From assembly GCF_004216665.1 (NCBI RefSeq), contig NZ_SGWY01000002.1, positions 844,685 to 908,684 of the forward strand: DNA of 64,000 nucleotides, given 5' to 3'. The position numbers and the translations under genes were made by a program. This document shows, one piece after another, positions 20,047 to 35,567 of the stretch (position 1 is the stretch's first letter; each line of letters begins with the position of its first letter). The notes below the pieces were generated by a model, which saw only the letters and a list, made by a program, of their open reading frames with translations, did not search any database and was not told the DNA's origin. The stretch is from Agromyces ramosus (lineage in GTDB: Bacteria; Actinomycetota; Actinomycetes; Actinomycetales; Microbacteriaceae).

Positions 20047-20106
20047 ACACGATGAACGATGCCGGCGGCCGTTCCGGGTGCGCGCCCGCCTCGCTCCGCC
20101 TGGCCG

Positions 20107-20604
20107 TCACCGTGCGGCGCTTCTCAGGTCCTGGATGAGCCGGGGCGTGCGCCACTGGCCCACCGTCGTGAACCAGCGCCCGATCGGATACGAGAGGCGC
20201 ACGACGAAGTAGTTCACGTACTCGAGTACGCCGAACAGCCAGACCGCCGACAGTCCGAGCGCTGCGGCGATGGACGAGGGCCACCAGATGACCAGCCCGA
20301 CGAGCCCGGCCACGAGCAGTACCACGTCGATCACGCGGAACGCCCGGTACGTGGCGGCGAATCCCGGCGGCATCGGCCGGCGTTCCACCCATCCGCGGGC
20401 CGCGAGCCAGTAGACGCCCGCCTGCACGAGTATCACGAGCAACGGAATCAGGGCCGACCACAGCGCCGCGGCATCCGACCGATGCTCGAGGCGGGGCGCG
20501 ACGACCGCGGCGGCGATGAGCGTGAAGACGAGCGTGGCGACCAGTTCGCCGACGCCGAGGTTCACGTACTTTCGACGCAGGTCCAGTTCGAGCTCGGCGG
20601 TCAT
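20107..20604 (-). CDS. Four-helix membrane protein of unknown function
   Basis: 165 residues. A charged N-terminus (MTAELELDLRRKYVN) precedes four hydrophobic segments near residues 18-38, 45-65, 90-110 and 112-132. The C-terminus is cytoplasmic and basic (RWFTTVGQWRTPRLIQDLRSAAR). I do not recognise a named family; the pattern resembles small conserved actinobacterial membrane proteins. ATG 20604 is the only good start before the antisense-looking low-complexity extension. It converges on dinB with 60 bases between stops and shares no obvious operon; the next minus-strand gene upstream ends 175 bases away. Confidence 0.6.
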   Translation of the reverse strand: MTAELELDLRRKYVNLGVGELVATLVFTLIAAAVVAPRLEHRSDAAALWSALIPLLVILVQAGVYWLAARGWVERRPMPPGFAATYRAFRVIDVVLLVAGLVGLVIWWPSSIAAALGLSAVWLFGVLEYVNYFVVRLSYPIGRWFTTVGQWRTPRLIQDLRSAAR

Positions 20605-20779
20605 CCGGCCAGCGTATCGAGCGTGCAGCCTCACGTCGGCGGCAGGCGCGCACGATGGAGCAGCTCGAGTCGCAACTGGAACCCTCGACCGATTTCGACG
20701 CCATTGTGGCCGGCCGCTCGAACGAGTGGTCGGCTTCAGCCCGTTCGCGGCTCGGGGACGCGACGACGGGCATGCGGCG

Positions 20780-21601
20780 TCACGCCTCGCGGAGCTCGCC
20801 ACGCACGATGGAGTCACCCGAATGCGCTGGGTCTCCGTCCACGGGCTCCGCGGACACGTCGACGAGCGTGTACTCGTCGAGGTCGATGCCGGCCGGCACG
20901 GCGAAGCGGCCTTCCGAGCCCTCGAGCAGCCCGAGGCTGACGAGCCCTGAAGCATCCGAACGGATGAGCCAGACCTCGCGCACGTCGTCCGACGGGACGT
21001 CGGCGTCGAGGGTGACGACGATCGAGCGGACCCCGTCATCATCCTCCTCGACGAGGGCCGTGCCTGACGTCGACCAGCCCGGGAACGCATCCAGGGATGC
21101 GCTCGCGACGATCGTCTGCCGCCCCGCCTGTCCGACGCCGAGACCGGAGAGCGCGACACCCAGCGCGATGCCGGCCACGATGCCCACGGCCGCGGCCGCA
21201 GCCGCGATGGGCCACCAGTGGCGCCGCGATGCAGCGGCCTCCGATGCAGAGACGTCGCGTGCACGGGCCGAGGTGTCGGGCATCCGCGTGACGACGGCCT
21301 GGCGCCGGTGGGGCTCGTGCTCCCCGTCGAGCGGTTCGGCTTCCGTCGACCGCGACGCCAACGGATCATCGGCGAGACCGGGAGCGAGACCGAGTTCGCT
21401 GTGGATGGCCGTCCACACGGATGAAGGCGGCGATTCGAGATCTTCGACGGGGTCGTGGCGACCGAGCTCGACCGTGCGAACGAGCGCGCCGTACTCCGCG
21501 CGGCATGCAGCGCACTCGTCGAGGTGGGATCGAGTGACACCCTCCGGCGTGACTCCATCGAGCGCGAGCGTCGCGAGGTCGTCAGGTTCGATATGGTTCA
21601 T
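20780..21601 (-). CDS. RskA-type anti-sigma factor
   Basis: 273 residues. The N-terminal zinc-binding anti-sigma motif is His26-x3-Cys30-x2-Cys33 (SHLDECAACRAEYG). A single transmembrane helix spans residues ~129-153. The outer C-terminal domain (~155-273) is the RskA/anti-sigma-K type beta fold (STSGTALVEEDDDGVRSIVVTL, then REVWLIRSDASGLVSLGLL). It should hold the ECF sigma factor at the membrane until the outer domain is proteolysed. Its start at 21601 overlaps the sigma gene by 20 bases, so the two are translated in a coupled way. No stress signal can be read from sequence. Confidence 0.87.
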   Translation of the reverse strand: MNHIEPDDLATLALDGVTPEGVTRSHLDECAACRAEYGALVRTVELGRHDPVEDLESPPSSVWTAIHSELGLAPGLADDPLASRSTEAEPLDGEHEPHRRQAVVTRMPDTSARARDVSASEAAASRRHWWPIAAAAAAVGIVAGIALGVALSGLGVGQAGRQTIVASASLDAFPGWSTSGTALVEEDDDGVRSIVVTLDADVPSDDVREVWLIRSDASGLVSLGLLEGSEGRFAVPAGIDLDEYTLVDVSAEPVDGDPAHSGDSIVRGELREA

Positions 21602-22142
21602 CGCCCACCTCCCATCGCGTCCTGAGCCTGCTGAGACTGCGTCGCACGTGACTCTTCACAGTACCCACGGGAAGCCCGAGGGTTTCGGCGATCTCCGAGT
21701 GGCTCAGCTGCTCATAGAACGCCAGCTGCATGACCCGACGCGGGACTGGCTCGAGCCGCTCGAGCTCCTCGGCCACCATGACGCGTTGGACGATCTCATC
21801 GCCCTCACCAGCTGGCCGAACGGACGCCTCGGCGACGAGCGCCTGCTCGATTCGCCGCACGCGGGAGCGGGCTTCGTGCGCGTCGGCGATGCGATGCCGC
21901 GTGATCCCGACGATCCAGGCACTGAGCGCGGAGCGCGACGGATCGAAGCCCTCGCGCGTGCGCCACGCCGAGATGTAGACCTGTTGCGTGACGTCCTCCG
22001 CATCGGTCCGATCGCCGAGAGAACGCATCGCGAGCCGGAAGACGAGCGGCGACCAGCGTGCGTACGCTTCGCGCAGCGCCCACTCGTCGCCGGCCGCGAA
22101 GTTCGTGCCGAGCGCCTGGTCGTCGACGGATTCCGAAGCCAT
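21582..22142 (-). CDS. ECF RNA polymerase sigma factor (SigK-like)
   Basis: 186 residues from ATG 22142. Sigma region 2 covers ~20-85 (YARWSPLVFRLAMRSLGD, DRTDAEDVTQQVYISAWR). Region 4 covers ~120-175 (PVPRRVMQLAFYEQLSHSEIAE, LGLPVGTVKSHVRRSL). The group resembles SigK/SigL, partners of RskA-type anti-sigmas. An in-frame GTG at 22259 overlaps the sortase stop as GTGA and would add 39 basic residues without homology; I prefer 22142 but cannot exclude the longer form. It is third in the leftward unit DUF4397-sortase-sigma-anti-sigma and probably activates the two matching promoters at 23823-23852 and 24215-24244, which would make the loop positive. Confidence 0.88.
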   Translation of the reverse strand: MASESVDDQALGTNFAAGDEWALREAYARWSPLVFRLAMRSLGDRTDAEDVTQQVYISAWRTREGFDPSRSALSAWIVGITRHRIADAHEARSRVRRIEQALVAEASVRPAGEGDEIVQRVMVAEELERLEPVPRRVMQLAFYEQLSHSEIAETLGLPVGTVKSHVRRSLSRLRTRWEVGDEPYRT

Positions 22143-22255
22143 CGAATTGCTCAGCTGACGCTCACCCCTTCGCGATCGTCGCACGCGATCTTCCGAAGCA
22201 GAATCCTGCAACGGGTTCGCAACCTGCTCCCGAGGCGCTTCGACCAGCATATCGA

Positions 22256-22927
22256 TCACTCACTTCCGCCTGTGGGGGTTGCGGTGAGCACGAGATTGCT
22301 CAAGTAGCGACGGTTCTCGTCATCGAACTCCCCGCCGCACGTGACGAGGGTGAGTCGAGGTGGCCCGGAGCGGTCGAAGGCCGCCGGCCAGTCCACGTCG
22401 GCCTTGCCCGTGATCTCGAGGCGCTCCACGGCGTACGCATGCACGGTACCTGCGGCGTCCGTGACGAACACCGGCATGGCAGCGATCGCGTCCTTGAGCC
22501 GAGCGAAAGGAAGCAGGTCGTATTCGAGTGAGTCGACGTGCGCCGCGATCACGGTCGATCCGGTCGCACTCGCCGGGGCCGACCCCCACTGATACCACGC
22601 GGCGATGGACGGATCGTCGAAAAGGCCCATCCGACCTTGGGCATCCAGCCCGACGGGCTGCACGCGCACATCGATGCCGAGGTCTGGGATCTCGATTCGA
22701 CTCGGCGGGGGCGCCGTCAGAGCACGGTTGTCCTCGAGTGCGGCCGATCTGCGTGGCACGGCCGGAGGCGTCGCGGTCGGCGCCTGGTGCATCGACCGGG
22801 TTCCGGTTTCCTCCGCCGGTGATGCGATGTCGGCGGCCCGCCCGTCAGGAACACCGCACGCGGACAGCGCGACGAGCATGGCGAAGGCCGCGATCAGGGT
22901 TCCCACCACCTTGGTCGCGGCCTTCAC
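22256..22927 (-). CDS. Lipoprotein sortase (class E/F-like)
   Basis: 223 residues. The signal ends in a lipobox LSAC (Cys24), so the enzyme is lipid-anchored rather than held by a transmembrane helix. The sortase fold has catalytic His130 (VIAAHVDSLEYD), Cys197 in TLVTCGGEF and Arg206/207 (DENRRYLSN). It resembles the short actinobacterial sortases that anchor surface proteins. GTG 22927 has GGGGGAT seven bases upstream. The gene follows the DUF4397 gene by 14 bases, and that protein ends with an LAATN-hydrophobic-basic tail that may be its substrate signal. A lipid anchor on a sortase is unusual. Confidence 0.83.
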   Translation of the reverse strand: MKAATKVVGTLIAAFAMLVALSACGVPDGRAADIASPAEETGTRSMHQAPTATPPAVPRRSAALEDNRALTAPPPSRIEIPDLGIDVRVQPVGLDAQGRMGLFDDPSIAAWYQWGSAPASATGSTVIAAHVDSLEYDLLPFARLKDAIAAMPVFVTDAAGTVHAYAVERLEITGKADVDWPAAFDRSGPPRLTLVTCGGEFDDENRRYLSNLVLTATPTGGSE

Positions 22928-22941
22928 CAGCTCATCCCCCT

Positions 22942-23772
22942 TCAGCGCCGGCTCTCCGCCGCCGGGCGACGCAGCGCCGTGAAGGCCAGTGCGAGACCCG
23001 CGAGCACGGCGCCGCCGATGGCGACCCACGTCCCGCCGTCGGACCCGGGAGCGTTGGTCGCCGCGAGGCCGGCCACACCAGCGGGGACACCGTTGGGGGT
23101 GGAGTGCAGGCCGGTGATCGTCTGCACGGCGAGGTCGAGGTTGTCGTCCTCGAGGCTGCCCCACGCGTACACGATCGTGCTCGCGCCTTCGGCGACGTCG
23201 ACGTCGGCGGGCCCGATGAGGGGCTCCGTGGTGCCGGCCGCGGCGACCGACGCGGACACGACGCCGGCCGGCAGGTTGAGGACCTGCTCGTTCGGATTGG
23301 TCAGGTTCGTGATCACCGGGGCACCACCCGCGAGCACGTCGACTGCGGGCGCGGCGGCGACGTGCCGGACGGTCAGCCTGCCCTCACCCGCTGCGGTCTG
23401 CGCGATGTCGTTCGTGAACAGCGTGGCCGTCGGATCACCCGATTCCGTGAGGTGGGCCACAGTGGTGTAGTTCTTCCCCGCTTCGAGCGAGAGGTCCACC
23501 GGTCCGATCGCAGGCGACGAGGCGTCCGCGGCATCCGACGCCGTGATGGCGACCGAGTACGCGCCGGCTGGGAGCTCCAGCGGGCCCGCGAGGTCCCCGG
23601 GCTCGAAGTCGTCGAGCGTGAGTGCGTCGTCGACGTACACGTCGACGGTGAGGCCCGGCACGCCGTGTAGGACGGAGAGCTGAGCGGGGCCTTCAGCCGC
23701 GTTGGCCGGCCCGACGGCGCCGAGGGCGACGAGCGTTCCGGCGCCGATTGCGGCGGCGAGGATCTTCTTCAT
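22942..23772 (-). CDS. DUF4397 surface protein with candidate sorting signal
   Basis: 276 residues. A signal peptide (1-26, MKKILAAAIGAGTLVALGAV, cleavage after ANA) is followed by two DUF4397-type beta repeats (starting AQLSVLHGVPGLTVDVYVDD and GRLTVRHVAAAPAVDVLAGG) over residues ~30-225. A C-terminal membrane helix (~247-267) ends in RRPAAESRR. LAATN at residues 236-240 precedes the helix, an arrangement like the class E LAxTG sorting signal with Asn for Gly. ATG 23772 follows GGAGGG. First gene of the sortase-sigma-anti-sigma unit; its promoter is the bipartite ECF-like element at 23823-23852. DUF4397 function is unknown, thought to be extracellular. Confidence 0.82.
   Translation of the reverse strand: MKKILAAAIGAGTLVALGAVGPANAAEGPAQLSVLHGVPGLTVDVYVDDALTLDDFEPGDLAGPLELPAGAYSVAITASDAADASSPAIGPVDLSLEAGKNYTTVAHLTESGDPTATLFTNDIAQTAAGEGRLTVRHVAAAPAVDVLAGGAPVITNLTNPNEQVLNLPAGVVSASVAAAGTTEPLIGPADVDVAEGASTIVYAWGSLEDDNLDLAVQTITGLHSTPNGVPAGVAGLAATNAPGSDGGTWVAIGGAVLAGLALAFTALRRPAAESRR
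23053..23067 (-). other. LAATN candidate sortase recognition motif
   Basis: Codons 236-240 of the DUF4397 protein encode L-A-A-T-N, followed by six residues, a hydrophobic helix and an arginine tail. Class E sortases use LAxTG; the final Gly is Asn here, so the assignment is provisional. Confidence 0.4.
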
Positions 23773-23822
23773 GGTTCCCTCCAAGTCTGCCCCGTGGTGG
23801 GGCGCGAGTTGCCTTCACCACC

Positions 23823-23852
23823 TACTTCCGCCGCCCGGTCGGAATTGGATGC
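23823..23852 (-). promoter_or_regulatory. ECF-type promoter of the DUF4397 operon
   Basis: On the minus strand GCATCC (23852-23847) and GAAGTA (23828-23823) are separated by 18 bases, and GCAGGT precedes the -35 element. The -10 element lies 50 bases before ATG 23772. The same two boxes with the same spacing precede the next secreted-protein gene (24215-24244). The upstream half resembles the CCATCC -35 reported for mycobacterial SigK; the -10 differs. Confidence 0.65.
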
Positions 23853-23950
23853 ACCTGCATGGAACTTCTTGCGCAACGCTCGGACTCGAGTCGGCGGCCC
23901 GGACGCGAGGTTCCGAGCCGCCGACGGGAGCACTGACCCGTCAGGGTGTG

Positions 23951-24169
23951 TCAGTCGCCGCAGATCCCCCTGGCGGTCTCGTTCTTGCCCGCGCCGCCGA
24001 TCGCCTTGACGACGTCGCCGACATTCGTGAAACCGAGGGCCCCTTCGGTGTTGATGGTCTTGTGCACCTGGCCGAAGCAGGCAGCGTCGGCGGGCGCAGC
24101 GTGGGCGGTGCCGGCGACGCCGAACGTGGCGAGAGCGGCGATGAATCCGGTGGCGAGAATGCGCTTCAT
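23951..24169 (-). CDS. Small secreted two-cysteine protein
   Basis: 72 residues: a signal peptide (1-24, cleavage after AHA) and a 48-residue mature part with Cys31 and Cys70, probably one disulfide joining its ends. The mature sequence (CFGQVHKTINTEGALGF, then VGDVVKAIGGAGKN) has no motif I can name. ATG 24169 has GGAGAAG seven bases upstream. It is transcribed from its own copy of the bipartite promoter that drives the DUF4397-sortase-sigma operon, so it is a likely target of that sigma factor. It could be a cell-surface or signalling peptide; similar small exported actinobacterial proteins are uncharacterised. Confidence 0.72.
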   Translation of the reverse strand: MKRILATGFIAALATFGVAGTAHAAPADAACFGQVHKTINTEGALGFTNVGDVVKAIGGAGKNETARGICGD

Positions 24170-24214
24170 TGAACTTCTCCTTCAATCGGCGGGTGCGTAT
24201 TCACCCGATACCTG

Positions 24215-24244
24215 TACTTCCACCGGAAGCCCGGTTTCGGATGC
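24215..24244 (-). promoter_or_regulatory. ECF-type promoter of the small secreted protein
   Basis: Minus-strand GCATCC (24244-24239) and GAAGTA (24220-24215), 18 bases apart, with the same GCAGGT before the -35 as in the element at 23823-23852. The -10 is 45 bases before ATG 24169. Confidence 0.65.
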
Positions 24245-24597
24245 ACCTGCCGCAGCTGCGATCCGGAAATCCGCGCATGTGATTCCCGAACGACAACAGG
24301 ACTCGGCCGGCGCAGGACCTCATGGGAACTTCGTGCCGACCGATTCGGTCACGGCTGGGTCCGCCCGCGCATGTGGTCTGCGACGCGGGTTCGCGGATCT
24401 TGCAGCGGGCTCGCAAACACGACGAGCTGGCCGTGTCGCGCTTCATCCCCGCATTTGATTGAGCGTGAGGGCGCCGTGAGGATCGGGCGGGTGGGCGTTA
24501 GGGATCCGTGAGGATGGGCTCCGCAACATGTGCTCGGGTGTTGCATCGCAGGTGCGATGACGTCGGTCCGCCGAGGTATTGCAGGAGGAGCTTGCAG
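24245..24597. other. Leader region of the KimA-like permease gene
   Basis: 353 bases without a credible ORF. It contains three CGTGAGG direct repeats (24464-24513) and a purine-rich Shine-Dalgarno AGGAGGAG before 24598. I looked for the conserved blocks of the c-di-AMP (ydaO) riboswitch that controls kimA in Bacillus and did not find them. Confidence 0.5.
24464..24513 (+). promoter_or_regulatory. Three CGTGAGG direct repeats, candidate KdpE-type binding sites
   Basis: Copies begin at 24464, 24475 and 24507, so they are 11 and 32 bases apart, close to one and three helical turns. Direct repeats on one face of the helix are what OmpR-family regulators bind. A fourth CGTGAGG occurs at 26604-26610 before the KdpC remnant. 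Binding is inferred. Confidence 0.4.
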
Positions 24598-26577
24598 ATG
24601 CGCGATTGGACCGAGTTCGAGTTCCCGGCCACCGTGCCCGGCCCGGCCGTGGGCCGCCCGAGGACGCCGCTCTCGCAATGGCTCTTCCAGCACAAGGTGC
24701 CGCCCGCCGGCCCGGAGATCGGGGAGTCGACGGTCCCGCAGCATTCCTGGTGGAAGGTGATGTCCCTGACGGGCGTCGACTACTTCTCCACACTGTCGTA
24801 CCTTCCCTCGATCGCCGTCCTCGCCGCCGGCGCGGTCTCGCCGATCGCCACGCTGTTGATCGTCGCGCTGACCCTGCTCGGCGTGTTGCCGATGTATCGG
24901 CGGGTTGCCGAGGAGAGTCCCCATGGACAGGGCTCGATCGCGATGCTCGAGCGGTTGCTCCCGTTCTGGCGGGGAAAGATCTTCGTCCTCGCGCTGCTCG
25001 GCTTCGTCGCGACGTCGTGGATCATCACCATCACGCTGTCATCCGCGGATGCGTCGGTGCACCTCATCGAGAATCCCCTCGCGCCCGAGGCGCTGGACGG
25101 GCAGGCGGTCACGATCACGATCGTGTTGCTGCTCATACTGGGCGGCGTGTTCCTGCTCGGATTCACGGAGGCGGTGAATGTCGCCATTCCCCTCGTGGCG
25201 GTCTTCCTCGGGCTCAACGCGATCGTCATCATCACGGGCCTGATCGATCTGGCCGCCGACCCGGTGGTGGTCGACGACTGGTGGGCGGTGCTGACCTCGA
25301 GCGGCGGGGGCTTCTCCGGCGTCCTGCTCCCGGCCCTGCTCGCATTCCCCCTGCTCGTGCTCGGGCTCTCGGGCTTCGAGACCGGTGTCAGCCTGATGCC
25401 CCTCGTCAGCGCGACAGGTGAGACCCCGCAGGAACGGCTTGCATCACGGATCCGGAACACCAAGAAGCTCCTCACTACGGCAGCGCTGATCATGAGCGTG
25501 TACCTGATCTCGAGCAGCTTCGTCACGACGTTGCTGATCCCGCCGGAGGCGATCGAGCCGGGCGGGGAGGCGAACGGCCGAGCGCTCGCGTACCTTGCTC
25601 ATGGGTTCTTCGGGGACGCGTTCGGAACCGTTTACGACATCAGCAGCATCCTGATCCTCTGGTTCGCCGGGGCGTCGGCGATGGCCGGATTGATCAACAT
25701 CGTGCCGCGGTACCTCCCGGCATACGGGATGGCGCCCGAATGGAGCCGCGCGATCCGCCCCGTCGTGCTGGTGTACACGACGATCAGCATCATCATCACG
25801 ATCGCGTTCGACGCGGATGTCGATGCGCAGGCAGGTGCGTATGCCACCGGCATCCTGGCGATGATGGTGTCGGCCTCGGTCGCTGTGCTGATCTCCGCGG
25901 TCCGCCGTCGCCAGCCGCTCTCGATCGTCGGGTTCGCCGCGCTGACCGTCATCCTCGGCTACGCGCTCGTGGCCAACGTGATCGAGAGGCCCGACGGTCT
26001 TGCGATCTCGGCGATGTTCATCCTCGCCATCGTCGTGGTGTCGATCATCTCCCGGGTGTCACGCACGACCGAGATACGCGCCGAACGGATCGAGTTCGAC
26101 GAGACTGCCCGCCGGTTCATTGCGGACTCGCTCGCGTACGACGGCCAGCTCAACCTGATCGCGAATCGACCCGGCGTCGGCGACGCCGCCGAATACGCCG
26201 AGAAGGAACTCAATCAGCGCCGCCTCAATCCGGTGCCCGGTATGGCCGACGTGATATTCCTCGAGATCCACGTCGTCGACCCATCCGTGTTCCGCGAGGT
26301 GCTGCAGGTTCGTGGCGTCGAGGTCGACGGTCATCGGGTGCTTCGTGCCGAGAGTCCCGCTGCGCCGAACGCGATCGCTGCGATCCTGATGGCGATGCGC
26401 GATGCGACCGGCGTGCAACCTCACGCCTACTTCGAGTGGTCCGAGGGCAATCCGCTCTTGCACATGGTCCGCTACATCCTCCTCGGACGCGGTGACACTC
26501 CTCCGGTCGTGCGTGAGATCATCCGCGAGGTGGAGAAGGATCCAGCCGAGCGACCCGTGATCCACGTGGGCGGGTAG
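24598..26577 (+). CDS. KimA-like APC-superfamily permease, probable K+ importer
   Basis: 659 residues. About twelve hydrophobic segments occupy residues 60-500, beginning with the highly characteristic [20 protein letters not shown] and [20 protein letters not shown], which match the KimA/YdaO branch as I recall it, rather than general amino-acid permeases. A cytosolic C-terminal domain follows (~510-659, [20 protein letters not shown] and later alpha/beta pattern), as in KimA of Bacillus subtilis (607 residues). KimA is a proton-coupled potassium symporter. ATG 24598 follows AGGAGGAG. It lies immediately upstream of a KdpC remnant, kdpD and kdpE, which supports potassium rather than amino acids as substrate. 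Transport itself is inferred. Confidence 0.78.
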
Positions 26578-26585
26578 CTGACCGA

Positions 26586-26612
26586 CGCACCTCATCCATG
26601 GTGCGTGAGGTG
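26586..26612 (+). promoter_or_regulatory. Overlapping alternative hairpins at the KdpC-remnant ribosome site
   Basis: CGCACC (26586-26591) can pair with GGTGCG (26600-26605), or CACCTCA (26588-26594) with TGAGGTG (26606-26612). The two pairings exclude each other, and the second covers the GAGG that would serve TTG 26617. Confidence 0.4.
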
Positions 26613-26616
26613 ATCA

Positions 26617-26823
26617 TTGGGATCGGGCTCGGGCCTGGACCCGCACATCAGTCCCGAGTACGCGCTGCTGCAGGTGGGCCGCGTTGCGGAGGCGCGGGGT
26701 CTCGAGGCATCCGAACTGCGCGAACTCGTGGAGTCTAGGATTCAGGCACGGGACCTCGGGTACCTGGGCGAACCCACCGTGAACGTGCTGCAACTGAATC
26801 TCGCCCTCGCGGAACTCGGCTAG
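26617..26823 (+). pseudogene. kdpC: KdpC C-terminal remnant, open frame of 68 residues
   Basis: The encoded chain begins [20 protein letters not shown] and ends [18 protein letters not shown], which is the conserved C-terminal half of KdpC, including [10 protein letters not shown]. The N-terminal membrane helix and the first ~100 residues of a normal (~190-residue) KdpC are absent. A TGA at 26611-26613 closes the frame just upstream, so TTG 26617 is the only usable start; GTGAGG precedes it. The frame has no internal stop, and kdpD begins ten bases after its TAG. kdpFAB are not in the window. It is either a relic of a deleted kdpFABC operon or a retained mini-protein; intactness of its motif favours recent loss or selection. 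Confidence 0.75.
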
Positions 26824-26833
26824 GAGCAGGCGC

Positions 26834-29317
26834 ATGAAGAGGGGGCAGCTTCGGGTGTTCCTGGGCGCCGCTCCCGGCGTCGGCAAGACCTACACCATGC
26901 TCGAGGAGGGCCGACGCCTTCGCAACGACGGCCATGACGTCGTCGCGGCCTTCGTCGAGACACATGGCCGGGCGGCCACCGCCGCGGTGATCGGCGACCT
27001 CGAGGTCGTGCCCCGCCGCTCCGAGACGCACCGGGGCATGGCCCTCGAGGAGATGGACGTCGGCGCCGTGCTGGCGCGCAAGCCCGAGATCGCCCTCGTC
27101 GACGAACTCGCGCACACGAACGCGCCCGGCTCGCGGCATCCGAAGCGCTGGCAGGACGTCGAGGACCTGCTCGCCGCGGGCATCGACGTGCTCTCGACGG
27201 TGAACGCCCAGCACATCGAGTCGCTCGGCGACGTCGTGCTGCAGATCACGGGCGTGCCCCAACCCGAGACGATCCCCGACTCGGTGCTGCGCTCCGCCGA
27301 CCAGATCGAGGTGATCGACCTCGCCCCGCAAGCGCTGCGCGATCGACTCGCGAGCGGACTCGTCTACCCCGCCGAGCGCATCGACGCCGCCCTGTCGAAC
27401 TACTTCCGGCTCGGCAACCTCACCGCGCTCCGCGAGCTCGCGCTGCTCTGGCTCGCCGACGAGGTCGAGAAGGCGCTCAAGGCCTACCGTGCCGAGCACG
27501 GCATCACGGGCAAGTGGGAGGCGAGGGAGCGAGTGGTCGTCGCACTGACCGGCGGCCCCGAAGGAGAGACGCTGCTCCGTCGCGGCGCACGCATCGCCGC
27601 CCGCAGCTCCGGCGGCGAGCTGCTCGCCGTGCACGTCACGACCCCCGACGGGCTGCGGGCCCGTCACCCTGAGGCCCTGGCCAGACAGCGTGCCCTCGTC
27701 GAGCAGCTCGGCGGCACCTTCCACCAAGTCGTCGGCGAGGACGTACCGCGAGCCCTCGTCGACTTCGCGAGGGCGTCGGATGCCACGCAGCTGGTGCTCG
27801 GCGTCAGCCGCCGATCCCGCCTCGCCGCCGCCTTCACCGCGCCGGGCATCGGCGCGACCGTCATCCGCGAGTCGGGCGACATCGACGTGCACATCGTGAC
27901 GCACGCGGCCGCCGGCTCCGCATTCTCGCTTCCCCGGCTCGGCGGCGCGCTCAGCCGCACGAGGCTCGTCGCGGGTTTCGTCGTCGCGCTCGTCGTGGGC
28001 CCGCTGCTCAGTTGGGTCCTCACGATCTTCCATACCGAGTCCTCGATCACGAGCGACGTGCTCGCCTACCAGCTGCTCGTCATCGTCGTGGCGCTCGTGG
28101 GAGGGCTCTGGCCCGCGCTCTTCACCGCCGTGCTCTCGGGCGTCACCCTCAACTACCTCTTCATCGAGCCCCTCCACACGCTCACGATCGCCGAGCCCCG
28201 GCAGCTGCTCGTCCTCGTGCTCTACGTCGCCAATGCCCTGCTCGTGAGCATCGTGGTCGACCAGGCGGCGCGGCGCACCCGCGAGGCCCGGCGTGCCGCC
28301 GCCGAATCGCAGCTGCTCGCCACGATGTCAGGAAGCGTGCTCCGCGGCGAAGATGCGCTGCAGGCGATGGTGACCCGCACCCGCGAGGCGTTCGGCCTCA
28401 CCGGGGTTCGCCTCCTCGTCGACGGCGAGCCGCGAGTTGCCGACGGCGAGCCGACCCGCGACGACCGGGTGACGAACATCCCGATCGGCACGCGGGGCGT
28501 GCTCGAGCTGCACGGACCCGACCTGGAAGCATCCGAGCGCCGCCTGCTGCAGGTCATCGCCACCCAGCTGGACGCCGCGATCGAACACGGCACCCTCGCG
28601 AGCGCCGCCGAAGCTGCCGACGAGCTCGCTGAGACGGACAAGGTGCGCTCGGCGCTCCTCGCCGCCGTTGGACACGACCTGCGCCGCCCGCTCACGTCGG
28701 CGTCGGCCGCCATCAGCGCGCTGCGCTCGCCCGAGGTCTCGCTCCCGCCAGAGCAGAGGACGGAGTTGCTCGACACCGCCGCCGAGAGCCTCGATTCCCT
28801 CGCCGCGCTCGTCACCAACCTGCTCGACGCGAGCCGGCTCCAGGCGGGCGCGCTCGCCGTCACACTCGCACCGACCGACATGGCCGACGTCGTATTCCCG
28901 GCGCTCGACGAGCTCGAGTTCGGCCCCGGAGAGGTCGAGCTCGACCTTGCCGACGAACTGCGGCCGGTGCTCGCCGACGCGGGGCTCCTGCAGCGCGTCA
29001 TCGTGAACCTGCTCGCGAACGCGGTGCGCCACTCCCCCGACGGCGAGCGGGTGCGGGTCGCCGCAAGCTCGTTCCGCGGCCGTACCGAGCTGCGGGTCGT
29101 CGACCGCGGACCCGGAATTCCCGCCGAGCGACGCGACGGGGTGTTCACGCCGTTCCAACGGCTCGGCGACACCGACAACGACACGGGCCTCGGCTTGGGC
29201 CTTGCGCTCTCGAAGGGGTTCGTCGAAGGCATGGACGGCACGATCGACGTCGAGGACACGCCAGGCGGCGGGCTCACCATGGTCGTCACGCTCCCCACCG
29301 CAGAGGAGGCGCCATGA
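26834..29317 (+). CDS. kdpD: KdpD-type sensor histidine kinase
   Basis: 827 residues. Order: KdpD sensor domain (1-~215) with Walker A GAAPGVGKT (11-19) and VDELAHTNAPGSRHPKRW; a UspA-like domain (~225-360); four transmembrane helices of the DUF4118 region (~375-480); a GAF-like stretch; HisKA with His614 (VGHDLRRPLTSA); and HATPase (NLLANAVRHSP, then GLGLGLALSKGF). This is the complete KdpD architecture that senses potassium or ionic state. ATG 26834 follows TAGGAG, ten bases after the KdpC remnant. Its stop overlaps kdpE by ATGA. The adjacent transporter is KimA-like instead of KdpFAB, so the kinase has probably been redirected. Confidence 0.9.
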   Translation: MKRGQLRVFLGAAPGVGKTYTMLEEGRRLRNDGHDVVAAFVETHGRAATAAVIGDLEVVPRRSETHRGMALEEMDVGAVLARKPEIALVDELAHTNAPGSRHPKRWQDVEDLLAAGIDVLSTVNAQHIESLGDVVLQITGVPQPETIPDSVLRSADQIEVIDLAPQALRDRLASGLVYPAERIDAALSNYFRLGNLTALRELALLWLADEVEKALKAYRAEHGITGKWEARERVVVALTGGPEGETLLRRGARIAARSSGGELLAVHVTTPDGLRARHPEALARQRALVEQLGGTFHQVVGEDVPRALVDFARASDATQLVLGVSRRSRLAAAFTAPGIGATVIRESGDIDVHIVTHAAAGSAFSLPRLGGALSRTRLVAGFVVALVVGPLLSWVLTIFHTESSITSDVLAYQLLVIVVALVGGLWPALFTAVLSGVTLNYLFIEPLHTLTIAEPRQLLVLVLYVANALLVSIVVDQAARRTREARRAAAESQLLATMSGSVLRGEDALQAMVTRTREAFGLTGVRLLVDGEPRVADGEPTRDDRVTNIPIGTRGVLELHGPDLEASERRLLQVIATQLDAAIEHGTLASAAEAADELAETDKVRSALLAAVGHDLRRPLTSASAAISALRSPEVSLPPEQRTELLDTAAESLDSLAALVTNLLDASRLQAGALAVTLAPTDMADVVFPALDELEFGPGEVELDLADELRPVLADAGLLQRVIVNLLANAVRHSPDGERVRVAASSFRGRTELRVVDRGPGIPAERRDGVFTPFQRLGDTDNDTGLGLGLALSKGFVEGMDGTIDVEDTPGGGLTMVVTLPTAEEAP

Positions 29318-30015
29318 GGATCCTCGTCGCCGACGACGACGCCCAGCTCCAGCGGGCGCTTCGCATCACGCTCGCCTCGCGCGGGTACGAGGTGGTCTCC
29401 GCGGGCGACGGTGCCGAGGCGATCGAGCTCGCGGCAAGCGCCCATCCCGATCTCCTCCTGCTCGACCTCGGGATGCCCCAGGTCGACGGCATGGACGTGA
29501 TCCGGGCGGTGCGCGCGTGGTCCAGAATGCCGATCCTCGTGCTGTCGGGACGCACCGACTCGGCCGAGAAGGTCGAGGCGCTCGACGCCGGCGCCGACGA
29601 CTACGTCACGAAGCCCTTCGCCATGGACGAGCTGCTCGCCCGGATCCGGGCCCGAGCCCGTGCCACGGGGGCCGACGAGTCGGATGCCGCGACGGTCGCG
29701 ATCGGCGACCTCGTCGTCGACCTCGCGGCCAGGACGATCCGACGCGCGACGTCGACGAACGCCGACGGCAGCGCCGCGGCATCCGTGCGCCTGACACCGA
29801 CGGAATGGCGGCTGCTCGAACAGTTCCTCAAGAACCCCGGCAAGCTCCTCACGCGCCAGATGCTGCTCTCGGAGGTGTGGGGGCCGTACCACGCGAACGA
29901 CGCCGGCTACCTGCGCCTCTACGTGGCGCAACTGCGCCGCAAGCTCGAACCCATCCCATCCGAGCCGACGCACTTCCTCACCGAGCCCGGGATGGGGTAC
30001 CGGTTCGAACCCTGA
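29314..30015 (+). CDS. kdpE: KdpE-type response regulator
   Basis: 233 residues. A receiver domain with acidic triad D7-D8-D9 region and phospho-acceptor Asp51 (LLLLDLGMPQVDG), the DAGADDYVTKPF signature, and an OmpR-type winged helix (PTEWRLLEQFLKNPGKLL, YLRLYVAQLRRKLEP, GMGYRFEP). The start overlaps kdpD by four bases. It should bind direct repeats upstream of its target; CGTGAGG repeats before the KimA-like gene are candidates. An insertion of ~15 residues (RATSTNADGSAAASVR) lies between the domains. It ends the operon. Confidence 0.88.
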   Translation: MRILVADDDAQLQRALRITLASRGYEVVSAGDGAEAIELAASAHPDLLLLDLGMPQVDGMDVIRAVRAWSRMPILVLSGRTDSAEKVEALDAGADDYVTKPFAMDELLARIRARARATGADESDAATVAIGDLVVDLAARTIRRATSTNADGSAAASVRLTPTEWRLLEQFLKNPGKLLTRQMLLSEVWGPYHANDAGYLRLYVAQLRRKLEPIPSEPTHFLTEPGMGYRFEP

Positions 30016-30311
30016 TTCACTGAGGGTGCCGCGCCAGGGCCCGAGCTGGACTACCGACGCAATGCAGCACCGCGGTGACGTCATGGGAGGACCCCGCGCA
30101 ACGCTCGCTCGCACCCGCTCGACGGTGCTCGCGCTGATCTCGCCTGTCATGTCGGTACCGCTCTCGCGTGTGACACGTCAGTGTCTTCTCCACCAAGCAC
30201 CCCGGGGGTCACCAGTACCCCTGGCCAGTAGCGACGACGGGCGCGACGAGCCGAGGGGACGGGCAGGCTCGTTGCTGTCACCGACCACCCAGGTCATGAA
30301 AGGACAGCATC
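30016..30311. other. Intergenic region between kdpE and the epoxide hydrolase
   Basis: 296 bases. It holds the 5-bp inverted repeat GACAC-GTCA-GTGTC at 30172-30185 and a CCCCGGGGG/CCCCTGG-rich patch. No promoter I can defend, no ORF of substance and no clear terminator for kdpE were found. Confidence 0.5.
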
Positions 30312-31508
30312 ATGAGCACCATCATCGACAGCATCACCAGCATCCGGCCGTTCGCGGTCGAGTTCTCGCAGGAACAGATCGACGACGCGCGCCGGCGGAT
30401 CGCGGCGACGCGATTCCCGAGCCGGGAGCTCGTCCAGGATCGCTCGCAGGGGGTGCAGCTCGCGACGCTGCACGCGCTTGCGCGGTACTGGTCGGACGAG
30501 TACGACTGGCGCAGGGTCGAACGACGGCTGAATGCGCTGCCGCAGTTCACGACCGAGATCGACGGGGTCGAGATCCACTTCATCCACGTGAGGTCGCCGC
30601 ACGAGAACGCGATGCCGCTGATCATGACGCACGGCTGGCCTGGTTCGGTCATCGAGCTGCTCGACACCGTCGGCCCACTGACCGACCCGACCGCGCACGG
30701 CGGCTCCGCCGAGGACGCGTTCCACGTCGTGCTGCCGTCCCTGCCCGGCTACGGCTTCTCGGGCGAACCGACCGAGCTCGGCTGGGAGAACGGCCCCATC
30801 GCGAGCGCCTGGGCCAAGCTCATGGACCGCCTCGGCTACACGCGCTACGTCGCCCAGGGCGGCGACGTGGGCGCCGCGGTCACCGACGCGATGGGCCGCC
30901 AGGGACCCGACGGGCTGATCGGCATCCACATGAACCTGCTCGCCCTCGCGATCGGCGTCAAGGACATCCTCCCGGCCGAGTCGGAGCCGGAACGCGCCGC
31001 GCACGCCGCCCTCGACACGTTCACCACGGACGGCTTCGGCTACTTCCTCGAGCAGTCCACGCGTCCGCAGACGATCGGCTACTCGCTGCTCGACTCGCCG
31101 ATCGGCCTCGCCGCCTGGATGCTCGACCACGACACCGACAGCTACCTCAAGATCACCCGCGCGTTCGTCGACGGCGACCCCGTCGGCAACCTCACCCGTG
31201 ACCAGATCCTCGACAACATCACCCTGTACTGGATGACGGGAACCGGCGCGTCGGCCGCCCGGTGGTACTGGGAGTTCGGCCGGTTCCTGGCCGCGTCCCA
31301 CGGCCACACCCCGCCGCCGGTGCAGGTCCCGGTCACGTTCACGACCTTCCCGGGCGAGCTCTTCCCATCTCCGCGCACCTGGGTCGAGACGGTCTACCCG
31401 ACCACCACGTACTTCAACGAGGTCGACCGCGGTGGTCACTTCGCGGCCTGGGAGGAGCCCGAGCTCTTCACGGCCGAGGTGCGTGCTGCGTTCAGGTCGC
31501 TGCGCTGA
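30312..31508 (+). CDS. Epoxide hydrolase (alpha/beta hydrolase with EHN domain)
   Basis: 398 residues. An N-terminal EHN domain (~10-115, IRPFAVEFSQEQIDDARRRI, RFPSREL) precedes the alpha/beta hydrolase core: oxyanion HGWPG (107-111), nucleophile Asp185 in AQGGDVGAAVTD, and His376 in VDRGGHFAAWEEP. The cap Tyr residues expected to activate the epoxide are in the lid region. Microsomal-type epoxide hydrolases turn epoxides into diols; the natural substrate cannot be read. ATG 30312 is preceded by AAAGGA. The oxidoreductase gene follows with a one-base TGATG overlap, so the two are co-translated. Confidence 0.87.
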   Translation: MSTIIDSITSIRPFAVEFSQEQIDDARRRIAATRFPSRELVQDRSQGVQLATLHALARYWSDEYDWRRVERRLNALPQFTTEIDGVEIHFIHVRSPHENAMPLIMTHGWPGSVIELLDTVGPLTDPTAHGGSAEDAFHVVLPSLPGYGFSGEPTELGWENGPIASAWAKLMDRLGYTRYVAQGGDVGAAVTDAMGRQGPDGLIGIHMNLLALAIGVKDILPAESEPERAAHAALDTFTTDGFGYFLEQSTRPQTIGYSLLDSPIGLAAWMLDHDTDSYLKITRAFVDGDPVGNLTRDQILDNITLYWMTGTGASAARWYWEFGRFLAASHGHTPPPVQVPVTFTTFPGELFPSPRTWVETVYPTTTYFNEVDRGGHFAAWEEPELFTAEVRAAFRSLR

Positions 31509-32452
31509 TGTTCGCGCTCCGCGCCTACGCACCGGGTGAGCCGGCACGACTCGCCTTCGACGAGGCCCCTTCGCCCGACCTCGGACCACGGGATGTCCTG
31601 GTCCGAGTGCACGCCAGCGGCGTCAGCCCGGGCGAGCTGGACTGGCCGGGGGCGTGGCTCGACCACGACGCCACGCCCCGCGTGCCGCCGATCGTCCCGG
31701 GGCACGAAGTCGCCGGCGTCATCGAGGCGGTCGGCTCGGACGCGACGGGCTTCGCCGTCGGGAACGAGGTCTTCGGCTACATCGACGTCCATCGTGACGG
31801 AGCCGACGCGGAGTACGTCGCCGTCCGGGCCGACACCGGCGAACTCGCTCCGAAGCCCAGCAGGCTGACCCACCCGGAGGCGGCGGCGGTCCCGCTGTCC
31901 GCCCTGACGGCGTGGCAGGCGCTCTTCGATCACGCGGACCTGCAACCCGACCAGCGAGTGCTCGTCCACGGCGGTGCCGGGGGCGTCGGGACGTTCGCCG
32001 TCCAGTTCGCCCGCTGGCGGGGCGCCCACGTCGTGGCGACGAGTTCCGAGCGCGATCGTTCGTTCGTGAGCGAACTGGGAGCCGACGAGGTGATCGACTA
32101 TCGCGGCACGCGGTTCGAGGACACCGTGGCGGAGGTGGATCTGGTCCTGGACACGGTGGGAGGAGACACGTGGTCGCGATCATGGGACGTGATCCGCCCC
32201 GGGGGGCGACTCGTGTCGATCGCCGTCCCGCGTCCACCCGACCGCGACGAAGCCGACGGGCGCCGGGCGGTCTGGTTCGTCGTCCGGCCGGATGTCCGGC
32301 AGCTGGTCGAGATCGGCCGGTTGCTCGACGCCGGGCTCGTCCGGTCGATCGTCTCTGACATCCTGCCGCTCGCCCGTGGCGCAGAGGCCTACGGGCCCGG
32401 CGCCCGGCGCAGCGGGCCGGGCAAGGTGGTGCTGTCCGTGGCCGGCGACTGA
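31508..32452 (+). CDS. NADP-dependent quinone oxidoreductase-like MDR protein
   Basis: 314 residues of the medium-chain dehydrogenase/reductase superfamily. A GroES-like N-terminal domain (~1-120, VLVRVHASGVSPGELDW, IVPGHEVAGVIEAVG) is followed by a Rossmann domain with VLVHGGAGGVGTFAVQFARW. The Cys/His zinc ligands of alcohol dehydrogenases are missing, so it belongs with zinc-free quinone or enone reductases. The start ATG is embedded in the stop of the epoxide hydrolase. The pairing suggests detoxification of reactive epoxides, enones or quinones, but no substrate is shown. It converges on the LuxR gene with an intervening hairpin at 32472-32508. Confidence 0.83.
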   Translation: MFALRAYAPGEPARLAFDEAPSPDLGPRDVLVRVHASGVSPGELDWPGAWLDHDATPRVPPIVPGHEVAGVIEAVGSDATGFAVGNEVFGYIDVHRDGADAEYVAVRADTGELAPKPSRLTHPEAAAVPLSALTAWQALFDHADLQPDQRVLVHGGAGGVGTFAVQFARWRGAHVVATSSERDRSFVSELGADEVIDYRGTRFEDTVAEVDLVLDTVGGDTWSRSWDVIRPGGRLVSIAVPRPPDRDEADGRRAVWFVVRPDVRQLVEIGRLLDAGLVRSIVSDILPLARGAEAYGPGARRSGPGKVVLSVAGD

Positions 32453-32471
32453 CTGAGAGACCGAACCCACC

Positions 32472-32508
32472 GCCGGCTGGCGCCGCCCCTCTGACAGCGC
32501 TAGCCGGC
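32472..32508. terminator. Hairpin between the oxidoreductase and LuxR genes
   Basis: GCCGGCTGGC (32472-32481) pairs with GCTAGCCGGC (32499-32508), nine of ten positions plus one G-T, with a 17-base loop. The right arm overlaps the stop of the convergent LuxR gene. Confidence 0.5.
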
Positions 32509-35262
32509 GAGCGGCTCGTACTTCGGGAGGGTGGTTCTCAGCGCCCTGCGCGAATTGATCTGGAGCTTCATGAAGACCTTCTTGAGGTGCCATTCGACCG
32601 TACGGGGACTCAGGTACAGCGTGGCGCCGATCTCGGCGTTCGTCCTCCCGTCGGCAGCCAGTCGCGCCACGTGCGCCTCCTGAGGGGTGAGCCCCTCGTG
32701 CTGTGCCTCCGTGCGCTTGCGCACCGTCGCTCCGGTCGCGAGCAGCTCATCCCGGGCGCGTTCCGCGAAGCCCTCAGCGCCCAGGTCGGTGAACATCGAG
32801 TGTGCCGTCCGGAGTTGCTCGCGGGCGTCGACCCGCCGGCCCTCGCGTCGAAGCCACTCACCGTACAGGAGATGCGCACGCGCCACCTCCGGACGCAGAC
32901 GAGTCGTGCTGAGCCGTTCGATCGCCGTGACGTAGTGCGGTTCCGCCTCCGCTGCGTCGCTGAGCAGGGCGGTCGACCGCTCCGAGATGCCGATCGCCCA
33001 TTCGGTGCCGCCCACGCTCGCGCTCGCCGTGAGTCGCCGGAGGGAATCCGCCGCTCGCTCCGGCTGGCCGAGCCTCGCGGCCGCCTCGATGAGCTCCGCC
33101 GAGGCGAAGATGGAGACGAACCAGTCGGGCCATGCATCCCATGCTCGCTGAGCGGCATCCAGGGCCTCGTCATATCTCCGCAGGCCGTTCAGGAACACGG
33201 CGCCGGTCCAGTGCGCCCATTGGAGCCCGAAGCCGGATCCGCTCGCGCGGGCCTTCCGCGTGGCTTCCTCCAGCAGGGTGAAGCCCGCGGATTCACGACC
33301 GCGAAGTGCTGCCAGCAGCATCGCACCGAATGGGGGAACCCGACTGCCGATCGCCTGGTTCACGGCATCCGCCTCGGCACACAGTCGCAGGGCGGCTTCG
33401 AACTGCCCCGTCAGCGCCATCGTGATCGCGGAACCGTTCAGACCGAACGCGAGGGGGGTCAGTGCGCCTGCATCTCGCGCCAGCTGCAACTGCCGCGTCG
33501 TGATCTCGTTCCGGACCTCGAAGTCCCAGAGCTCGAGTGCGGCGCATGACGCGATCACACTCCACCGCATCCCCCGGTCCACCGGGAGGTTCTCGACGAG
33601 GAATTCGCTGAGCGCGCGACGGAGCGCGGGTGCTGCCGCCTCGCGACCGTCGGTCATCAGCACGGACATCCCGTGCAGGAGGAGATCCGTACCGTGCTGA
33701 TCGTCTCGGAAGAGTCGCCGTCCGCGAACGACGCGCGAGACCTCGCGCATGTTGGCTCCGGCCCGATCGCCGGCGAAGAGCGCCGCTCCCCATGCATCGA
33801 GATAGGCCTCGCGAGCCACAACCGGATCGAGGGGCTCCAGCCGCTCGGCCGCGGCGACCAGGAGAGCGGGCACTTCCTCGAGCGCTCCCGAGGCCGACAC
33901 GATCTGGGCCCGGATCAGGTCGGCGCGAGCGCGCTGAAGCTCGTCGAGCCCGGATGCGTCGGCCGTCTGGAGTACGTGCAGCGCGGACGCGAACTCGCCT
34001 GCGTGCAGGCTCGCCTGGGCTGCCGCGAGGGCGCGTTCCGCCCGCACGGCGGGGTCGTTCGTCAACTCGACCGAGCGCGCGAGGAATGCTGCAGCTGCGG
34101 AGAGACCGCCTCGGGCGCGCGCGCGCCCCGCCGATCGCTCCAGTTCCGTGGCGACGGCCTCGTCCGGCACGACGGTCGCAGCAGCGAGATGCCACGCGCG
34201 CCGATCGGGATCGGCCTCCGGGTCGATGGACTCCGCGAGGGCGAGGTGCGCGGCGCGCCGGTCCTGCGCCGACGCCGCTCGGTAGATCGCGGAACGCACG
34301 AGCGGATGTCGGAAGCGCACGCCGCTGTCGACGGCCAGGAGGCCCTCGCTCTCCACGGCCTCCGCAGCCGCGGCATCGATGCCGAGACGTTCCGCGGCCC
34401 GCCAGAGCAGTATCGGATCGTCAGTGGGCTCGGCCGCGGCGAGGAGGAGCAGAAGTCGCGCCTCCGTGGAGAGTGCCTCCAGACGAGCGACGAAGGCCTC
34501 TTCGATTCGCTCGGGCAGCTCGCGCTCGTCGTGCAGGACGAAGGCACCCGGGAGCTGCGTCGAGCTCAGTCGCCGCGGCAGCTCGAGCAACGCGAGCGGA
34601 TTGCCGCGGGTCTCCGTGAGGAGGCGATCGCGCACGCGCGCGTCGAGTCGGCCGGGGATGACCGTCTGGAGGAGTTCGCGAGCGTCGTCCTCGGCGAGAC
34701 CTTCCAGCCGCAGTTCCGGCAGTCCGTCGAGTTCGCGATTCGCGGCGGGCTCCCGCACGGCGAAGACCATGCCGATCGAATCCGCGAGCAGCCGTCTTGC
34801 AACGAAGGCGAAGGCTTGCCCGGAGGCGCTGTCGACCCATTGCGCATCATCGATCAGGCAAAGCATCGGCTGCTGCGCAGCGGACTCCGAGAGGAGGCTC
34901 AGCGCAGCGAGCGACACGAGGAACGGGTCGGGGGTCGCGCCGTCGATGAGCCCCAGCGCAACGCTCAGCGCCACCTCCTGCGGTCGAGGGAGCGAGCCCA
35001 CTCGTTCGAGGATCGGCCGACAGAGCTGATGCAGGGACGCGAACGGCAGCTGCATCTCCGACTGCACGCCGGCCGTACGGAGAAGCTGGAGGCCAGCGGC
35101 GTGATCGGCGCAGTGGCGCAGAAGGCTCGTCTTGCCCACCCCGGCTTCGCCGCGGATCACCAGGACTGCCCCATGACCGCCTCGTGCTTCGGCAAGGAGA
35201 TCCTCCAGCAGCTTCAGCTCGCGCGCACGACCCAGCAGCAGCCGGTCATCGTGTACGCCCAT
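32500..35262 (-). CDS. Large ATP-binding LuxR-family regulator (LAL)
   Basis: 920 residues. An N-terminal AAA/STAND-like ATPase has Walker A GEAGVGKTS (38-46, IRGEAGVGKTSLLRHCADHA) and Walker B MLCLIDDAQWVD. A long helical, TPR-like middle (~300-850) follows. The C-terminal LuxR helix-turn-helix is LTPQEAHVARLAADGRTNAE, then GATLYLSPRTVEWHLKKVF. LAL proteins are ligand-triggered transcription activators, often of secondary metabolism or sugar use. ATG 35262 follows AAGGAGG by seven bases. It converges on the quinone oxidoreductase, and the epoxide hydrolase pair may or may not be its target. Length is typical of the group. Confidence 0.87.
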   Translation of the reverse strand: MGVHDDRLLLGRARELKLLEDLLAEARGGHGAVLVIRGEAGVGKTSLLRHCADHAAGLQLLRTAGVQSEMQLPFASLHQLCRPILERVGSLPRPQEVALSVALGLIDGATPDPFLVSLAALSLLSESAAQQPMLCLIDDAQWVDSASGQAFAFVARRLLADSIGMVFAVREPAANRELDGLPELRLEGLAEDDARELLQTVIPGRLDARVRDRLLTETRGNPLALLELPRRLSSTQLPGAFVLHDERELPERIEEAFVARLEALSTEARLLLLLAAAEPTDDPILLWRAAERLGIDAAAAEAVESEGLLAVDSGVRFRHPLVRSAIYRAASAQDRRAAHLALAESIDPEADPDRRAWHLAAATVVPDEAVATELERSAGRARARGGLSAAAAFLARSVELTNDPAVRAERALAAAQASLHAGEFASALHVLQTADASGLDELQRARADLIRAQIVSASGALEEVPALLVAAAERLEPLDPVVAREAYLDAWGAALFAGDRAGANMREVSRVVRGRRLFRDDQHGTDLLLHGMSVLMTDGREAAAPALRRALSEFLVENLPVDRGMRWSVIASCAALELWDFEVRNEITTRQLQLARDAGALTPLAFGLNGSAITMALTGQFEAALRLCAEADAVNQAIGSRVPPFGAMLLAALRGRESAGFTLLEEATRKARASGSGFGLQWAHWTGAVFLNGLRRYDEALDAAQRAWDAWPDWFVSIFASAELIEAAARLGQPERAADSLRRLTASASVGGTEWAIGISERSTALLSDAAEAEPHYVTAIERLSTTRLRPEVARAHLLYGEWLRREGRRVDAREQLRTAHSMFTDLGAEGFAERARDELLATGATVRKRTEAQHEGLTPQEAHVARLAADGRTNAEIGATLYLSPRTVEWHLKKVFMKLQINSRRALRTTLPKYEPLAG

Positions 35263-35567
35263 GCGGAGGCCTCCTTGCCAACCGCTCCTCACGACCCTGA
35301 GGCCGCCGAACGGCTGATACACGACGTTGCATCGCTGTCGAGCCGAGCCGGCGGGCGGCGGCACCGAGGGCACGAGATGAGGAAGTCTCGCTTGGCTCGG
35401 AGTGTAATCCGAGGGCATGATCCGCCGCAAACACGTCCGACGGCCAGTGGCTTCACCGGGTGCGAGCCCGGCGGTCCAGCGGCGAGGCTGCATCCACATC
35501 ACACCGCGCCGGCATCGTTCCCCGCGTCATTCGCACGACCTACGGTTGGCGACCCACCCCCGGCGTC
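35263..35567. other. Region upstream of the LuxR gene
   Basis: 305 bases between the LuxR start and the stop of the split permease (both minus strand). It contains a 6-bp inverted repeat CTCGGA-GTGTAA-TCCGAG at 35396-35413, a possible operator of the LuxR promoter. Nothing else is supported. Confidence 0.5.

Follow-up and report, generated by a model that had tools for sequence, protein, structure and literature searches.

A KimA-like permease beside kdpDE and a kdpC remnant in Agromyces ramosus: a likely potassium-uptake operon with a changed output

Gene content of the locus and loss of the KdpFABC pump

The window analyzed here is a stretch of 64,000 nucleotides from Agromyces ramosus, whose genome assembly has a size of 3.84 Mb, is 99.98% complete, and consists of six contigs. 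Four adjacent genes on the plus strand of the window follow each other in the order permease, kdpC piece, kdpD, and kdpE, exactly as the preliminary description of this DNA had placed them. The first gene (24598..26577) encodes an APC/KUP-type permease of 659 amino acids with a predicted KimA-like fold. It is followed by a kdpC remnant of 68 codons with a TTG start (26617..26823), by a complete kdpD encoding a sensor kinase of 827 amino acids (26834..29317), and by a complete kdpE encoding a response regulator of 233 amino acids (29314..30015). Neither kdpF nor kdpB lies between the permease and the kdpC remnant. The last three genes are tightly spaced: kdpD starts 10 nt past the kdpC stop codon, and the start of kdpE overlaps the stop of kdpD.

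The KdpD/KdpE sensor pair normally controls the K+-pumping KdpFABC ATPase. In A. ramosus, the sensor kinase has the KdpD N-terminal domain, the Usp domain, the membrane domain DUF4118, and the HisKA and HATPase_c domains of the kinase core, and the regulator has the receiver (Response_reg) and winged-helix (Trans_reg_C) domains of the OmpR type, all according to Pfam; the best NCBIfam matches of the two proteins are KdpD and KdpE, each below the equivalog cut-off. The Pfam KdpC match (PF02669, E 3.5e-26) spans only positions 118-181 of 182, so the first two thirds of KdpC are missing and the remnant is the C-terminal third. Immediately 5' of its TTG codon at 26617 are an in-frame stop and a serine codon.

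Just upstream of the locus, on the minus strand (20780-23784), are genes for an RskA-type anti-sigma factor, an ECF-like sigma factor, a sortase, and a DUF4397 protein. The genes downstream (30312-35502) encode an epoxide hydrolase and a zinc-type dehydrogenase, and one on the opposite strand encodes an AAA/LuxR regulator of 1000 residues; these downstream neighbors have no DNA match in the compared stretches of relatives. More generally, the flanks 20000-24450 and 30020-36000 gave no DNA match above 60 bits around the kdp and permease genes of relatives, except 64 nt in one congener (G200).

KdpA was not found anywhere in the A. ramosus genome; the same search, positive in five of 14 control genomes, finds it in 32 of 60 Agromyces genomes (A. 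ramosus counted). KdpC is present in 33 of these 60 genomes, A. ramosus again counted. The gene order at the locus is not a matter of chance, since KdpC is full length in 32 genomes of the genus and has no match in 27, and the truncated form occurs in A. ramosus alone. At the family level, KdpC has a match in 78 of 150 genomes, including A. ramosus, and no second stub was seen in the 60 genus or 150 family genomes, aside from partial matches at contig ends (two in G032 and one in G124, the only other partial matches among the 150). The genome contains a single KdpD, and its single KdpC match is the truncated one. Taking KdpA together with a full-length KdpC as the mark of the ATPase, A. ramosus lacks it in the whole genome, and its KdpD and KdpE are thus not accompanied by kdpFABC. 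An intact kdpFABC elsewhere, which the preliminary description had named as an observation that would speak against its reading, is excluded as judged through the KdpA and KdpC searches.

The sensor genes are not visibly decaying, because their pairwise pN/pS values resemble those of pump-bearing congeners: 0.208 with A. ramosus versus 0.220 among seven congeners having the pump for kdpD, and 0.237 versus 0.247 for kdpE. The permease was left out of this comparison, the G193 gene with its internal stop being misaligned. For the end of kdpC, the values are 0.205 with A. ramosus and 0.229 among the seven congeners, which fits constraint and recent deletion alike. The KdpC fragment is most likely an inert relic devoid of a membrane anchor, serving at most as a translational lead-in to kdpD.

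The permease

The permease has no credible Pfam family, and comparison with PDB sequences by phmmer and by profile gave no match to KimA. The KimA homolog of A. ramosus is a separate protein on another contig (C3, L250) that matches Bacillus subtilis KimA (6s3k) at 2.3e-119, and the similarity of the permease to this homolog is weak (23% identity, E 9e-7; hhalign probability 34%, E 4e-4). The earlier designation of the permease as KimA thus has no sequence match behind it, and holds at the level of the predicted fold, where KimA ranks first. In a Foldseek search of PDB, the top three matches of the structural model (pLDDT 69, pTM 0.60) are three entries of B. subtilis KimA, with E-values from 1.8e-13 to 1.0e-10, 13-14% identity, and TM-scores of 0.51 normalized by the query and 0.58-0.60 by the target. 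The KimA alignments cover 642-650 columns versus about 450-490 for amino acid transporters, which rank lower; human cation-chloride cotransporters, with about 680-820 gapped columns, also rank below KimA. Since the pLDDT of the model is 69, we regard this as moderate evidence for a KimA fold.

Eight KimA residues have mutants described in the portion of PMC6994465 available to us. Six of them, D36, Y43, T121, S125, E233, and Y377, have identical counterparts in the permease (D61, Y68, T144, S148, E261, and Y415, respectively), which are invariant in 30 homologs; the mapping was made by hand from the alignments, and the TM6 residues were placed by spacing only. The two others are serines in the permease: D117, the proposed inner K+ sensor of KimA, corresponds to S140, and T230, whose mutant grew like the wild type according to the same portion of PMC6994465, corresponds to S258. 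From the KimA-type segments that had been claimed for the permease, what stands is the D..Y pair at a spacing of seven, corresponding to D36 and Y43. The modeled fold and these residues suggest that the permease probably works like KimA, yet is not a KimA member by sequence, and we consider it a probable distant structural relative of KimA and a predicted potassium importer. It would not be the sole K+ importer of the cell, since the genome also encodes two TrkH proteins, each followed by TrkA, along with the KimA homolog.

Candidate KdpE sites and origin of the arrangement

Two direct repeats precede the permease gene on the plus strand. The upstream box, CGTGAGG-N4-CGTGAGG (24464..24483), has exact half-sites and was detected with a pattern allowing up to two mismatches. 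The main box, CGTTAGG-N4-CGTGAGG (24496..24515), has no mismatches and aligns with the kdpF promoters of the genus. Further downstream, an alignment with eight congeners identified the GGGTGTTGCATCG element (24536..24548, plus strand), common to kdpF promoters and, by its position, a possible core promoter. The regions upstream of the permease in A. ramosus, G179, and Agromyces albus DSM 15934 (G151) can all be aligned with eight kdpF promoters, and the alignment takes in GGTGTTGCATC at a more downstream position. In 27 of 32 congeners, a strict direct repeat (CGTTAGG-N4-CGTGAGG or alike) lies upstream of kdpA, at 323-393 nt from where the KdpA match begins; near misses are present in the stretch covered for four of the remaining five promoters, and the upstream stretch of the fifth (G189) is too short to include the region.

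Sixteen chosen genomes out of the 60, namely the 11 with a close permease and five others, were scanned with CGTTAGGGNNCCGTGAGGAT at up to two mismatches. The A. ramosus genome contains two matches, the boxes starting at 24464 and 24496. In the other genomes, the matches fall in kdpF promoters and ahead of the permeases of G179 and A. albus, apart from three stray ones with two mismatches (in G152, G183, and G167). The reversed control pattern gave no match in any of the 16 genomes, and no box was found in the four scanned genomes lacking both KdpC and KdpA (G200, G079, G186, and G176). In the available text of PMC5401905, the Mycobacterium smegmatis KdpE requires the 22-mer CCGTAAAGAAACCATCAAGGCC, which we read as the same half-site pair in a direct repeat with a period of 11 bp. 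Because kdpF promoters and permeases share the box and the M. smegmatis site has the same architecture, the direct repeat in A. ramosus is very probably a KdpE site. The proposal that potassium control by KdpDE is coupled here to a different transporter thereby gains support at the sequence level, in that the permease gene is preceded by a promoter element of the kdpF type. A c-di-AMP riboswitch was considered and rejected, as Rfam gave no match to one within 22000-32000.

Relatives of the permease with 77-91% identity occur in 11 of the 60 Agromyces genomes (A. ramosus included), and more distant ones in two genomes at 56-57%; in G164, there is a weak stretch of 38%. The box precedes three of the 11 genes, those of A. 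ramosus, G179, and A. albus, and is absent ahead of the other eight, including that of G170; the three do not form one clade in the permease tree, so two changes are needed. A. albus has the arrangement box, permease, box, kdpFABC, and kdpDE, which resembles a likely precursor of the A. ramosus locus. According to coordinates and alignments, both A. albus and G170 have the permease immediately 5' of kdpFABC-kdpDE and in the same orientation. The permease of G167 comes after kdpE, that of G156 is located 8.7 kb beyond the kdp genes, and in G179, Agromyces sp. Soil535 (G192), G193, and A. tardus (G205) the permease and kdp genes are on separate contigs; G152 and G200 have the permease and no KdpA. 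Altogether, eight of the 60 genomes, including A. albus, have both the pump and a close permease, 24 have the pump without a close permease, and the genome of the genus having the permease with KdpDE and no pump is A. ramosus. The G193 copy (L109, G193:C1:574799-576775) contains one internal TAG stop, has no box, and is not linked to kdp; a permease fragment of 68 residues lies 12.6 kb from this main copy.

The DNA similarity of the A. ramosus locus to its congeners ends at 26573-26584, at or just past the permease stop codon, and restarts at 26619-26623 inside kdpC. The segment 26578-26628 resembles 32 kdpF promoters, with one of 300 shuffled sequences scoring equally well. By this promoter similarity, positions 26604..26626 of the plus strand are a probable remnant of the upstream half-box of the kdpF promoter joined to kdpC, that is, a deletion scar; the likeness is suggestive, not overwhelming. 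This half-box and the kdpC breakpoint are 4593 nt apart in A. albus and 19 nt apart in A. ramosus. The simplest reading of these sequences is that about 4.6 kb, starting in the kdpF promoter and ending within kdpC, were deleted from a cluster in which both importers were already present. An alternative, in which the permease was inserted into kdpFABC in A. ramosus, was rejected as the simplest account, because A. albus and G170 have the order permease-kdpFABCDE. The idea that the importer replaced the ATPase is therefore supported in its result, with KdpA gone and KdpDE intact, and needs correction in its route, which was probably a deletion downstream of a permease already in place. The loss of the pump may be recent, since the stub is confined to A. 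ramosus among the 60 genomes. In the permease tree, A. ramosus groups with G179 (support 99/98), and in the tree of the kdpC end and kdpD start, which includes 30 of the 32 other genomes with kdpC, it groups with G170 (0.999). With the two parts siding with different relatives, sequence was likely exchanged between lineages at some stage, and recombination besides deletion may have shaped the locus.

The permease family extends beyond Agromyces. A survey of named genomes covered 80 loci, those with the best matches among 213 stretches. Clear kdp genes lie within flanks of up to 7 kb in seven of the best 80 (A. albus L166, and L169, L170, L174, L181, L188, and L222), and the only kdp-like neighbor in L171 is a 36% regulator. 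Three of these, L169, L170, and L174 from Pseudarthrobacter and Arthrobacter, have the order kdpD-kdpE-permease and carry CGTTAAG-N4-CATTAAG between kdpE and the permease (for L169, the alignment reached only the C-terminal part of KdpD). The kdpDE genes are divergent in L181, and the order kdpD-kdpE-permease recurs in G044, a member of the same family as A. ramosus. KdpA is absent from five of the eight examined genomes with kdpDE beside the permease (those of L169, L170, L174, L181, and G044) and present in G035, G110, and G122; these five absences are weaker than that in A. ramosus, given the 90% completeness of G044 and the lack of a completeness value for the other four genomes.

A relaxed box pattern, CRTNARG-N4-CRTNARG, gave 13 matches in the best 80 of the 213 loci, which amount to 1.13 Mb. 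In 12 of the best 80, a box is situated no more than 300 nt ahead of the permease gene, oriented with the gene in eight cases and inverted in four that are counted as boxes (L175, L193, L213, and L219); the other 68 have no box, and the reversed control gave none in those upstream stretches. The loci are not independent, as several are from Arthrobacter and three from Kibdelosporangium. Four of the seven kdp-linked loci carry a box, and L181, L188, and L222 do not; G044 had none in a narrower scan. L173, L175, L177, L192, L193, L213, L219, and L221 have a box and no kdp genes in the fetched flank. We lean toward the view that control by KdpE has shifted repeatedly from KdpFABC to one uncharacterized family of KimA-like permeases, across several actinobacterial genera and both in cis and in trans. 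The permease would then be a second standard target of KdpDE, and the sole one in some genomes (A. ramosus, members of the Arthrobacter group, and one other family member).

Some further observations concern individual loci. In G035, G110, and G122 (L129, L130, and L131), perfect half-sites in inverted orientation lie between kdpE and the permease. In G035, about 370 kb separate kdpFABC from the only KdpD, and kdpA is nonetheless preceded by a box at a distance of about 320 nt. On plasmid 3 of Deinococcus deserti (L246 5412-10308), a TrkH gene directly follows a permease of the same family, and another two-component system divergently precedes it. A general genomic neighbor of the permease was sought and rejected, the commonest neighbor cluster being found in 11 of the best 80 loci.

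Functional interpretation and comparison with known systems

We consider it likely, from the sequence evidence above, that the A. ramosus locus is a KdpDE-controlled K+-uptake operon in which a secondary transporter has become the output in place of a P-type ATPase. It would have arisen when a cluster holding both importers lost the DNA reaching from the kdpF promoter to a point inside kdpC. Under low K+ or osmotic stress, KdpD would phosphorylate KdpE, which would bind both direct-repeat boxes ahead of the permease gene and switch on a single transcript of the permease, the kdpC remnant, kdpD, and kdpE; the permease would then import K+ by proton symport in a KimA-like manner.

The strongest competitor, still an unlikely one, takes the locus as a relic, in which KdpDE and the KdpC piece are leftovers of the pump loss and the permease is a neighbor under unrelated control. 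The restriction of the stub to one of 60 genomes and the lack of a kdp-type box ahead of eight of the 11 genus permeases agree with it; it is opposed by the two boxes, one of them perfect, that precede the permease and occur nowhere else in the genome, by kdpD and kdpE showing no relaxation in pN/pS, and by the tight spacing of the three kdp genes. Slightly less probable still is that the permease carries an amino acid or another solute in place of K+, in which case KdpDE would control an osmolyte importer. Such a role would accord with the absence of a sequence match to KimA, with the annotation of relatives on plasmids, mostly as 'amino acid transporter' or 'APC family permease', and with the moderate confidence of the model; the first rank and longer alignments of the KimA structures, the invariance of the K+ and H+ residues of KimA, and the TrkH gene following the D. 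deserti family member argue against it.

It seems very improbable that the KdpC fragment was kept for a function, as a small cytosolic protein modulating KdpD or the permease. The mean pN between the fragment and its counterparts in congeners (0.092) does not exceed that of the congeners among themselves (0.110), and the TTG codon is preceded by a GAGGTGATC stretch, read as a possible ribosome-binding site. However, a recent deletion yields the same low divergence, the fragment is known from a single genome of the 60, its start falls within the scar, and the soluble domain of KdpC acts outside the cell membrane within the complex. Finally, loss of the 4.6 kb during assembly, conceivable in that there is one assembly only, is scarcely credible, given that no KdpA occurs in a genome of 99.98% completeness and that the sequence at the joint looks like the remainder of a promoter leading into kdpC.

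If the reading as a KdpDE-controlled operon with a changed output is true, A. ramosus is a natural case of a sensor that was kept while the machine it commands was swapped, a natural experiment in regulatory rewiring with possible intermediates alive in sister species. It also predicts that a large permease family, mostly named 'amino acid transporter' (213 stretches in one scan), consists of K+ importers that are partly KdpDE-inducible, and it would allow a test of what KdpD senses and how it acts without the pump. In this last connection, KdpD is reported to control the pump at the transcriptional level and also after translation (PMC11018627). Among the open-licence papers matched in literature searches, no title or abstract opening describes KdpDE control of a KimA-type importer; a review on Streptomyces (PMC10117811) mentions two KimA-like proteins with 39-42% identity to B. 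subtilis KimA and a KdpDE that has not been studied.

The A. ramosus locus resembles the kdpFABC-kdpDE systems of Escherichia coli and M. smegmatis in its complete KdpD and KdpE, encoded downstream of the importer, and in the box-type promoter ahead of the importer, and differs from them in the absence of KdpA from the genome, in the reduction of kdpC to its last third, and in the secondary transporter that stands first in the row. With B. subtilis KimA, a member of the KUP superfamily, the permease shares the predicted fold, aligned over nearly the full length, and the six residue counterparts; it differs in giving no sequence match to KimA itself, in having serine at the positions of D117 and T230, and in the lack of an Rfam riboswitch match in 22000-32000, and the KimA homolog of A. 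ramosus is encoded elsewhere. Further parallels are the Arthrobacter and Pseudarthrobacter loci L169, L170, and L174, where KdpDE also lies beside the same permease family, with a box and without KdpA. These loci, however, have the reverse gene order, no kdpC piece, and a KdpD only about 37-42% identical to that of A. ramosus, and we read their kdpD-kdpE-permease order as an independent arrangement.
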